Shown here: positions 39,999-45,075 of the stretch, piece after piece
How positions within the stretch are numbered: the first letter of the stretch is position 1
Layout of the letters: each line of letters begins with the position of its first letter
Origin: an uncultured Verrucomicrobiota bacterium
GTDB taxonomy: Bacteria; Verrucomicrobiota; Verrucomicrobiia; Limisphaerales; UBA9464
Assembly (NCBI GenBank): GCA_903907995.1
Contig: CAIVQH010000046.1
Coordinates: 62,001 to 126,000 of the forward strand
Direction of reading: 5' to 3'
DNA: 64,000 bases
The notes under the pieces: model-generated
The model's database searches: none
What the model saw: only the letters and a program-made list of their open reading frames with translations
Told to the model about the DNA's origin: nothing
Position numbers and translations under genes: made by a program

Positions 39999-40826
39999 TC
40001 ACACTTTCGTTGGCGGTGGCGGTTCGCTGCAGGGCCAGCGGGCGAGGAAGGCGAGTTGCGCGGCACGGTCGGGGATGTCGTCCAGCTTAGGGTCGTTCAG
40101 GAAGCGCGGGGGATAGGCGGCGTCCAGCGCGATGACAGTCACGGTCGAGCCCTCGACCGTGAAGAAGGCCCGCCACGCGCCACAGCCGATTTCCAGATGT
40201 TCACCCTGTCGTTGCCGGATGCGCCGGGTGCGGTGTGGTGAGGGGTCGCGCGACAGCAGCTCGACCAGGCGCGCCCGATAATCTATGCCCCAGGTGGTCA
40301 GCAGCCATTCGCCCTGCTCTTCGGCAAGCGAGGAGAATTGCACCTTGAACTGCGGCGGCGTACTGAGCGCGGCGTCCACCTCGTCGTGCCAGCCCGCCGC
40401 CGCGTCGGGAAAGGAATCGTAAGTGGGGATGTAGGGCTTAATGTCGAAGACCGGGGTACCCTCCACCAGGTCGCACGCACCCAGAATGAGGCGGCGTCCC
40501 TCGACCCCAAGCAGTTGCACGGGCGTCAGGCCCAGGGGATTGGGCCGGTGCGGCGAACGCGTCGCGAAGACACCCCGCCGCCGGGCCGGGCCGCGCGGCG
40601 GCAGCACGAGCGGACGCCAGGTGGCGTTGCGGTGAAACCACCAGACGAGCCACACGCGGGAGAAGCCGGCGAGATCACGCACGGCCATCTCGTAGTTCGC
40701 GCCCGGAAGGAGTTCGAGCACGTTGCGCTCAGCTTCCGTTTCCAGTGGCTGATGACGCGCCTGAAACTTTACGTGCTTGCCCGAACGGATGAAGCCAATC
40801 GGGCGTAAGGTGAGCGCCAGTTCCAT
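39999..40826 (-). CDS. trmO: tRNA (N6-threonylcarbamoyladenosine(37)-N6)-methyltransferase
   Basis: 275 residues. TrmO/YaeB proteins methylate t6A37 of certain tRNAs using S-adenosylmethionine bound in a beta-barrel. The diagnostic motif FATRSPHRPNPLGLTPVQLL is present, preceded by the SAM-side segment FSRVWLVWWFH and followed by DIKPYIPTYDSF. The C-terminal domain includes DPSPHRTR. It is convergent with the U32 gene. Confidence 0.93.
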   Translation of the reverse strand: MELALTLRPIGFIRSGKHVKFQARHQPLETEAERNVLELLPGANYEMAVRDLAGFSRVWLVWWFHRNATWRPLVLPPRGPARRRGVFATRSPHRPNPLGLTPVQLLGVEGRRLILGACDLVEGTPVFDIKPYIPTYDSFPDAAAGWHDEVDAALSTPPQFKVQFSSLAEEQGEWLLTTWGIDYRARLVELLSRDPSPHRTRRIRQRQGEHLEIGCGAWRAFFTVEGSTVTVIALDAAYPPRFLNDPKLDDIPDRAAQLAFLARWPCSEPPPPTKV

Positions 40827-43934: not shown

Positions 43935-44060
43935 GGCAGGCTTATTTCAGGAAGGAGTTAGCAGGGCGGCGGTGAATCGGAAAGAAGGGTTTCAGGGCAT
44001 GGCCGTGGTGCCCAAGAACCAAGGCGGGAACACGAACCATGACCGGAGCGAATGCGTTCT

Positions 44061-44144
44061 CGTCGCGGAGCGACGATGTGACAGTAGACACGTGGGTCTC
44101 GACCCACGTTTTGCGGTGGTAAGGGAATTCGTCGCGTAGCGACG
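44061..44144 (-). repeat. Three-hairpin REP-like element, copy B
   Basis: Three palindromes in 84 bp: CGTCGCGGAGCGACG (44061), CGTGGGTC-TC-GACCCACG (44091-44108) and CGTCGCGTAGCGACG (44130). It is in inverted orientation relative to copies A and C. The linker CTACTGTCA (minus strand) is shared with them, but the middle palindrome has a different sequence. Confidence 0.88.
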
Positions 44145-44181
44145 ATTGAATGGTCGCCTTGTAGAGGACGTGAAATTTCAA

Positions 44182-44265
44182 GCGTCGCTACGCGACGCAC
44201 GCCCTCTTTACCAGCAAACCATGGGCAAATGCCCATGGCTACTGTCACCCCGTCGCTCCGCGACG
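44182..44265 (+). repeat. Three-hairpin REP-like element, copy A
   Basis: Three palindromes in 84 bp: GCGTCGC-TAC-GCGACGC, CCATGGGCA-AA-TGCCCATGG (44219-44238) and CGTCGCTCCGCGACG, with the linker CTACTGTCA before the last. It sits 50 bp downstream of the transposase gene, back to back with copy B. No gene is present in 43935-44315. Confidence 0.9.
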
Positions 44266-44315
44266 AAACGACACCTTTGACATCACGCGGCTTACGGCGT
44301 TTGTGAGAATTGATT

Positions 44316-44768
44316 TCAACCAAAGACATACTCCTCCTTGTAATCGACTTCGTGTCGGTCGAGAAACGCGCGGTACTCCTCCTCAAAGCTTTTCACCCGA
44401 TGGTGTTCACGTTGGCCGCGGATGTATTCCTCGACATCTGGGACTTGGGATTTGCTGACGGTGAAGGCGGCATAGCCGTCCTGCCATGCGAACCCGCCCA
44501 GGCCCAGGAAGTTCTGTTTGATCCAGGTCGAAGAACCGCTTTTGAGGAGTTGGATTACCTGGCTGAGTGACAGTTTCGGAGGAATGCCCAGTAGCAAGTG
44601 CACGTGATTTTCTATGCCTCCGACCAGCAAGGCCTTCATCTCGTTCTCGCGGGCGATGCCGCCGACGTAGGTCCAGACGCGTTGTTCAATGTCCTCGTGA
44701 ATCCACGGCTCACGATTTTTCGTACTGAACACGATGTGGTATTGGAGCGAGGTGAAGGTATTGGCCAT
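44316..44768 (-). mobile_element. Y1 (IS200/REP-associated) transposase
   Basis: 150 residues from ATG 44768 (MANTFTSLQYHIVFSTKNRE). The HUH motif is ENHVHLLLG and the likely nucleophile Tyr is in VEEYIRGQREHH, giving the single-strand DNA transposase fold. No TnpB gene accompanies it. Three-hairpin repeats lie on both sides (copies A and B downstream, C upstream), the usual setting of RAYT proteins, which are thought to spread or process such repeats. It is inserted between the DUF1592 and DUF1552 genes. Confidence 0.92.
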
Positions 44769-44849
44769 GGCGTTAGGCGCGAAGGGAAACGCGAGGGGCG
44801 GCCGAGAGCATGGAATTGGTGAACAACGTAAGACAATTCGAGCATTCAA

Positions 44850-44934
44850 GCGTCGCTACGCGACGCACGGCGTTTCGGGGCGATAAACCATGGGCCTTGC
44901 CCATGGCTACTGTCATAGCGTCGCTCTGCGACGC
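44850..44934 (+). repeat. Three-hairpin REP-like element, copy C
   Basis: Same order and orientation as copy A: GCGTCGCTACGCGACGC, CCATGGGC-CTT-GCCCATGG (44888-44906), linker CTACTGTCA, then GCGTCGCTCTGCGACGC. Preceded, like copy A, by TTCAA. It lies about 80 bp upstream of the transposase start, in the 307-bp gap 44769-45075. Confidence 0.9.
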
Positions 44935-45024
44935 CAAAACGCCCACGTCACCAACGACGCCAAAATCGCCGAGATGGCTGCGAGGGGTCTTGGATGTCGT
45001 AAAACTCATTCGTTTTCGGATTCC

Positions 45025-45059
45025 GATCACTGATCACTGACGACTCATTACTGAAAACT
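45025..45059. repeat. Heptad array of the GATCACT family
   Basis: Five exact-length 7-nt units in tandem (GATCACT twice, then GACGACT, CATTACT, GAAAACT). The same core occurs in the U32 gene array at 37702-37808. It lies just beyond the stop of the DUF1592 gene; no inverted partner is seen nearby. Confidence 0.75.
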
Positions 45060-45075
45060 CGCTCCAAGCCATTCG

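Follow-up and report, generated by a model that had tools for sequence, protein, structure and literature searches.

REP-like three-hairpin units beside a subclass 1.2-like Y1 transposase in a Verrucomicrobiota genome, and their overlap with the Acido-Lenti-1 RNA family

The window analysed here, a 64-kb stretch of DNA from an uncultured Verrucomicrobiota bacterium (contig C46:62001-126000 of genome G000, which comprises 5.1 Mb), contains a short gene for a transposase, tnpA, with hairpin-rich repeat units on both sides. Each unit possesses two outer hairpins, h1 and h3, and a central hairpin with a four-letter tag at its foot. The units correspond to copies B (U1), A (U2) and C (U3) of an earlier, sequence-only reading of this DNA; their bit scores refer to our covariance model R1:

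43997-45075 (approximate ends): region missing from the congeners G005 and G007, between DUF1552 and PSD/cytochrome genes
44061-44144, + strand: unit U1 (83.9 bits, E 1.7e-15), with h1 at 44060-44076, GTAG at 44084-44087, central hairpin at 44090-44109 and h3 at 44129-44145
44183-44265, - strand: unit U2 (86.9 bits), with h3 at 44182-44198, central hairpin at 44219-44238, GTAG (- strand) at 44239-44242 and h1 at 44251-44265
44061-44265, both strands: REPIN-like inverted pair of U1 and U2, with six hairpins and a 38-nt centre
44316-44768, - strand: tnpA, IS200-like Y1 (HUH) transposase, subclass 1.2-like, 150 aa from ATG
44851-44933, - strand: unit U3, upstream of tnpA (80.8 bits), with h3 at 44850-44866, central hairpin at 44888-44906, tag at 44907-44910 and h1 at 44918-44934
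44888-44933, + strand: full-length, sub-threshold match to RF01687 at 21.6 bits (E 0.025; gathering score 37), comprising central hairpin, CTAC and h1 as read on the opposite strand

The three units are 83-84 bp long. In single-stranded DNA folding each of them gives three hairpins, and the z-scores against dinucleotide shuffles are -3.5 (U1), -5.6 (U2) and -5.4 (U3). Read on one strand, the order is h1 (CGTCGC-nnn-GCGACG), a linker ending in TGACAGTAG, the central hairpin, a spacer, and h3 (CGTCGC-GTA-GCGACG). The linker TGACAGTAG (= CTACTGTCA) is identical in all three units, and GTCGCnnnGCGAC has six exact matches in the 64-kb window, all of them inside the U1-U3 area. The last four letters of the linker, GTAG, stand at the 5' base of the middle hairpin, a detail overlooked by the sequence-only reading; this tag abuts the central hairpin on its 5' side in U2 and U3, and lies 2 nt off in U1. 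GTAG directly 5' of a hairpin is the position of the tag in REP elements. The central stem is ACGTGGGT/ACCCACGT in U1 and CCATGGGC/GCCCATGG in U2 and U3: three of the eight pairs are changed on both sides, and pairing is kept in all. U1 and U2 make up an inverted pair on the downstream side of tnpA, and U3 stands on its upstream side. Our data thus bear out what had been read from the letters at this locus, namely three units of three hairpins each, a common linker, a compensatory change in the middle palindrome, and the layout of the copies around the transposase. Elsewhere in the window, a perfect 11-bp hairpin at 25468-25492 (GGGGGGTGGCAAATTGCCACCCCCC) is probably an unrelated terminator, and a perfect 10-bp hairpin at 40139-40162 (TCACGGTCGAGCCCTCGACCGTGA) is found within a TrmO-like gene (39999-40826, - strand; PF01980). 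Rfam matches to SECIS_4 and MIR6136 had chance-level scores and were rejected.

The tnpA reading frame is intact, with an alternative TTG start at 44849, and its product matches PF01797 (E 9.2e-30) and the NCBIfam IS200 model (E 3.7e-24). Its closest solved relatives by sequence are the TnpA proteins of ISDra2 and IS608, and a Foldseek search with its AlphaFold model (mean pLDDT 89) likewise recovered IS608/ISDra2 TnpA at E about 1e-9, together with the E. coli TnpAREP-hairpin complex 4er8 at 5.8e-5. Invariant across 22 homologues (numbering of alignment A3) are H54, H56, W94, Q95, Y114, Q118, H121 and H122, with Y114 as the catalytic tyrosine, and a C-terminal tail is common to the homologues when compared within A3. 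The window protein possesses the HUH, WQ and Y---Q--HH motifs and lacks the Y---NP motif of class 2 (RAYT/TnpAREP). WQ, Y---Q--HH and a length of about 148 aa are the signature of TnpA_Y1 subclass 1.2 (Quentin et al. 2018, PMC6006769). With the same motifs and about 150 aa, the window TnpA therefore belongs with this subclass, and not with the classical RAYTs. The earlier designation 'RAYT/REP-type' consequently stands in its second half (REP-like, with a longer unit of three stems) and falls in its first. For subclass 1.2, the published table entry is 'REP: no', and IS200 end structures are described as generally absent (PMC6006769).

Scanning genome contigs with protein alignment alone, a sampling that favours close relatives of the query, yielded at least 80 loci. 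The titles of the 80 loci listed name Verrucomicrobiota, Planctomycetota, Acidobacteriota, Bacteroidota, Chloroflexi, Calditrichaceae, Nitrospirae, Geotalea, Hydrogenedentota and others, and some of their MAG labels (Klebsiella, Akkermansia) look doubtful. The encoded proteins, among these listed loci, have a median length of 149 aa, with WQ in 80/80 and a Y[IV]--Q--HH-type motif in 76/80. Around the 80 listed genes, perfect hairpins (stem of 7 or more) occur within 200 bp at 6.3/kb upstream and 7.2/kb downstream and beyond 600 bp at about 0.6/kb, and they stand on both sides of the gene in 64 loci. In the same 80 loci TAG is found at the 5' foot of 144 of the 276 hairpins near the gene versus 25 of the 173 far from it, mainly as GTAG, ATAG and TTAG. 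Tagged hairpins, present in 59 of the 80 loci listed, mostly point forward upstream of the gene (53:13) and backward downstream of it (62:15), and tnpA is therefore bracketed by inverted copies. Both outer hairpins flank 109 of the 144 tagged hairpins in the listed loci, as against 2.7 in shuffles, and the full three-hairpin unit lies within 400 bp of tnpA in 51 of the 80. Full units amount to 2.81/kb in non-coding DNA near tnpA (51 loci) and to 0.18/kb in other non-coding DNA (6 loci), a 15-fold difference. Among the 80 loci listed, the published subclass 1.2 trait 'no REP' fails, given the 51 loci with full units. One locus (L090, 1129-1843; G067:C140) has direct tandem units, spaced at about 204 bp, upstream of tnpA, in contrast to the inverted pairs of other sites. 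In another (L010, 1215-1307; G088:C99) an outer hairpin stands alone in series (GCGTCGCggcGCGACGC repeated) beside full units, which looks as if h1/h3 can multiply alone.

The general unit consists of h1, about 9 nt, NTAG, a central hairpin of 7-8 bp, 20-27 nt (about 23), and h3; the distance from the end of h1 to TAG is 8-10 nt in 113 of 126 cases. The outer loops are mostly GNA triloops (GGA, GTA, GAA), closed by C-G in 93/98 cases for h1 and 78/87 for h3, and their G...A form appears on the NTAG strand (h1 75/98, h3 63/87), the counts on the opposite strand being 0 and 1. DNA mini-hairpins are exceptionally stable when a G-C stem carries a GNA or GNNA loop, GCGAAGC melting at 78 C (PMC4686876). 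The restriction of GNA loops to the NTAG strand, together with their stability as DNA, therefore indicates that this strand is built for folding as single-stranded DNA. Cut-site choice in REP and IS200/IS605 systems is guided by a tetranucleotide that precedes the hairpin on its 5' side, GTAG in relatives (PMC8266576), and by analogy the NTAG strand would be the one expected from these systems.

Covariation was assessed on 20 pairs in 58 covariance-model hits from many genomes. In these hits 98.4% of the cells pair, versus 27-46% when partners are slid, a percentage that is somewhat favoured by the fitting of the alignment to the model and by a choice of seeds made partly on hairpins; this does not account for the double changes. 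Changes on both sides occur in 17 of the 20 pairs, all three helices contributing, and double-change cells number 140, whereas shuffles give 31.5 and slid partners no more than 22. By type, 1100 cells are Watson-Crick, 22 are G-T (about 2%) and 18 are mismatched; the G-T frequency and the loop polarity were our basis for judging between an RNA and a DNA reading. The extraction of units for A1 and A2 favoured paired stems, while the model hits of A4 were unfiltered for pairing; two rows of A1 were offset by one column in the central stem, and the counts were repeated on A4. Selection on the folded structure of the units, proposed earlier from three copies, is thus supported well beyond them.

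The sequence-only reading had further called for a covariance-model search for dispersed copies, and had named their absence as evidence against it; such copies exist. Model R1, built from 17 units and applied at a cut-off of E below 1e-7, detects 16 units at dispersed sites in G000: seven inverted pairs on C60, C46 (two), C38, C9, C47 and C40, and two singles, one on C31 plus U3. The pair on C40 was found although it is outside the seeds of R1. The pairs have h3 facing inward, a centre of 34-38 nt and an overall length of about 200 bp, and the U1+U2 layout of about 205 bp is present at six further sites in G000 (DNA search and R1). The units thus show the short dispersed palindromes and inverted pairs by which REPs and REPINs are recognized, with an intergenic placement taken from rough ORF calls, and, as is expected beside RAYT genes, flanking hairpins with a GT[AG]G tag (GTAG in U1-U3) are repeated elsewhere in the genome as 16 dispersed units. 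A genome-wide search with the exact pattern CTACTGTCA..GTCGC yielded only the window copies and L001, which is without a matching hairpin and was judged a chance match; diverged copies, seen by the covariance model, escape exact patterns.

Three more inverted pairs are found in the congener G003. Its pair on C42 shares 83% identity over 216 bp with the pair on C60 of G000, and the flanks are unrelated; the block therefore occupies different sites in the two genomes. A close relative of the window tnpA was not found in G003, whose pairs are therefore orphan repeats. G005 and G007 have 53-60 bp between the same DUF1552 and PSD/cytochrome genes, and the whole 43997-45075 region is absent from them. 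A clean empty site with exact ends was sought in the congeners and not found, given that G005 and G007 are without the region and that other DNA separates the DUF1552 and PSD genes of G003, namely an insertion some 1.9 kb long that differs from that of G000 and includes other coding sequence (L087, 1262-3170; G003:C30). To describe the system as active, as the sequence-only reading did, or as recently active in this genome, goes further than the data: tnpA is intact, but the copies in G000 are diverged.

At least five further three-hairpin families are present in G000, three of them beside a tnpA of their own (L006, L007, L008), and the four tnpA genes of this genome adjoin four different unit families. 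Cognate tnpA genes were not found in G000 for the family CCCAGCCA..TGGCTGGG (L038 and L057, on C40 and C49), which matches a family beside tnpA in G070 (L013), or for the family GCCCAGGGC..GCCCTGGGC (L041/L053, on C26). Across 55 loci, protein similarity correlates with similarity of the central stem (Mantel r 0.19, p 2e-4), of the h1 stem (r 0.16, p 0.004) and of the tag (r 0.11, p 0.003), a significant but weak signal of co-evolution between protein and unit.

The Acido-Lenti-1 family (RF01687) has been noted near group II introns. It is called probably RNA in its discovery paper (Weinberg 2010) and classed as 'Gene; sRNA' in Rfam; it appears without further remark in a 2023 Vibrio paper, and a 2026 paper describes its function as little known and suggests regulation. 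Our data reveal that the 46-nt RF01687 model spans the central hairpin, CTAN and h1 of the unit, the Rfam strand being opposite to the NTAG strand: the RF01687 'RNA' is one half of the three-hairpin DNA unit, modelled on the opposite strand. The match to U3 in the window has 21.6 bits and falls outside the family under the 37-bit gathering score, and the top scores are 41.6 bits in other units of G000 and 62.6 in relatives. RF01687 matches 43 places in G000 (E below 1), three of them above the gathering score; among the places are some next to two of the three remaining tnpA homologues. Forty of the loci found through the protein were scanned with the model, which gave 54 hits above gathering in 23 of the 40 and none in 17; 48 of the 54 are no more than 400 bp away from tnpA, in a zone that makes up 13.7% of the sequence. 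Of 96 related genomes, 53 have a tnpA relative and 43 lack one; RF01687 (E 1e-4) is present in 45 of the former and 18 of the latter (Fisher p 1.2e-5), and ten or more copies are found in 22 versus 3 genomes, respectively. Many copies with identical scores occur in G017, G070 and G085. In six relatives with five or more RF01687 copies (G024 and G030 have about 50 each), a subclass 1.2 tnpA was searched for and not found, and a PF01797 search in RF01687-rich genomes without a close tnpA returned mostly longer, other Y1 proteins or nothing. The link between repeat and transposase is therefore not one to one. The repeat-rich G024 and G030 possess other, longer Y1 proteins.

We consider it probable, at roughly 0.78, that the units are REP-type recognition sites in single-stranded DNA for the subclass 1.2 TnpA encoded between them, and that they are dispersed as inverted pairs. 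Whenever the NTAG strand is single-stranded, e.g. as lagging-strand template, h1 and h3 would snap into very stable C(GNA)G mini-hairpins, which may act as clamps that frame or position the central hairpin. The target bound by TnpA would be this hairpin together with its tag, NTAG serving as putative guide to the cut site in the manner of REP and IS200/IS605 elements; by cutting and rejoining single strands the enzyme could spread the units at low frequency, for the most part as inverted pairs about 200 bp long.

Other explanations of the same hairpins have to be considered. The units might be the ends of an ordinary IS200 insertion sequence that moves whole with tnpA, the dispersed copies being decayed ends. 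The nearest solved structures, those of IS608 and ISDra2 TnpA, and the congeners without tnpA at the window site agree with this, but the same three-hairpin unit is found on both flanks, and neither distinct left and right ends nor mobility of a whole element was seen. The element is single-copy: no near-identical multicopy element is present in G000, tnpB does not adjoin the window tnpA, and the other three tnpA genes of the genome, only 34-42% identical to it, are no recent copies. Moreover, units are dispersed without tnpA, in inverted pairs with a constant centre of 34-38 nt, and Y---Q--HH is the motif of the low-copy subclass 1.2 and not of the IS200 subclass 1.1. We therefore regard insertion sequence ends as an unlikely explanation.

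Slightly more doubtful still is that the units are genes for a structured sRNA, Acido-Lenti-1, which would be either a chance neighbour of the transposase or an RNA regulator of tnpA and other genes. Such a view could draw on the Rfam class and on the wording of Weinberg (2010), and on the regulatory role suggested in the 2026 paper, and covariation of pairs is also expected of an RNA. It is opposed by the Rfam strand, which is not the one with NTAG and GNA loops, by the scarcity of G-T pairs (just about 2% of cells), and by the symmetry of the inverted pairs and of the inverted copies that bracket tnpA; the high copy numbers with identical scores in G017, G070 and G085 resemble repeats and not genes. 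Ordinary bidirectional terminators or mRNA-stabilising stem-loops would likewise be GC-rich intergenic hairpins, and the downstream copies do come after a gene. However, among the 80 loci listed hairpin density upstream of tnpA equals that downstream, and the fixed spacing of three hairpins, the NTAG tag and a density 15 times that of the remaining non-coding DNA in these loci make this very improbable as the main role, with a secondary role in termination being possible.

As REP-type sites of a subclass 1.2 TnpA, the units invite comparison with several known systems. REP/REPIN/BIME sequences with their RAYT (TnpAREP, class 2) likewise have a short GC-rich hairpin with GTAG at its 5' base, are dispersed as intergenic inverted pairs, and form families beside their own HUH-Y1 gene (REPtron). 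In contrast, the transposase here is of class 1, subclass 1.2 (Y---Q--HH, where RAYTs have Y---NP), the unit adds two GNA-loop hairpins at fixed spacing, and the first base of the tag is free (GTAG, ATAG, TTAG). With published subclass 1.2 proteins the window TnpA shares a length of about 150 aa, [DN]H[VI]H, WQ, Y---Q--HH and a low copy number; however, those were described (PMC6006769) as mostly from Cyanobacteria and Bacteroidetes, without REP and generally without IS200 ends, whereas the relatives found here come from many more phyla and are nearly always flanked by hairpins. Above-threshold Acido-Lenti-1 hits adjoin the same transposases and the model covers half of the unit, but Rfam, in the accessible part of its entry, has an sRNA on the opposite strand, without the third hairpin or a link to a transposase. 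IS200/IS605 elements (IS608, ISDra2) share the HUH-Y1 fold and a single-stranded DNA hairpin with a 5' guide tetranucleotide; unlike them, the present system shows no distinction of left and right ends and has no adjoining tnpB, and its units multiply apart from the gene. Di Nocera et al. (2013, PMC3733652) describe GTAG-tagged palindromes from Verrucomicrobia and Planctomycetes, among them the repeats of Opitutus terrae, and TIRYT elements, in which some tyrosine transposases, in Acidobacteria too, have other inverted repeats on their flanks. In the accessible part of that paper, these are single palindromes of 20-40 bp or TIRs with GGGGWSAS, and three-hairpin units are not described.

It appears likely that these units represent a widespread, undescribed REP-type class, with three hairpins and GNA clamps, that serves as substrate of subclass 1.2 TnpA across many phyla, and that the Acido-Lenti-1 'RNA' is a misread half of it. 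This would provide a candidate substrate for a transposase subclass published as having none, and suggests what an Rfam RNA family may be, one to which no function has been assigned since 2010 and which is still read as regulatory RNA in genome papers. The REP architecture itself, with its fixed three-hairpin spacing and one-strand GNA clamps, amounts to a testable claim on how HUH enzymes recognize folded single-stranded DNA, and pipelines that report Acido-Lenti-1 as an sRNA may be reporting mobile-repeat DNA.
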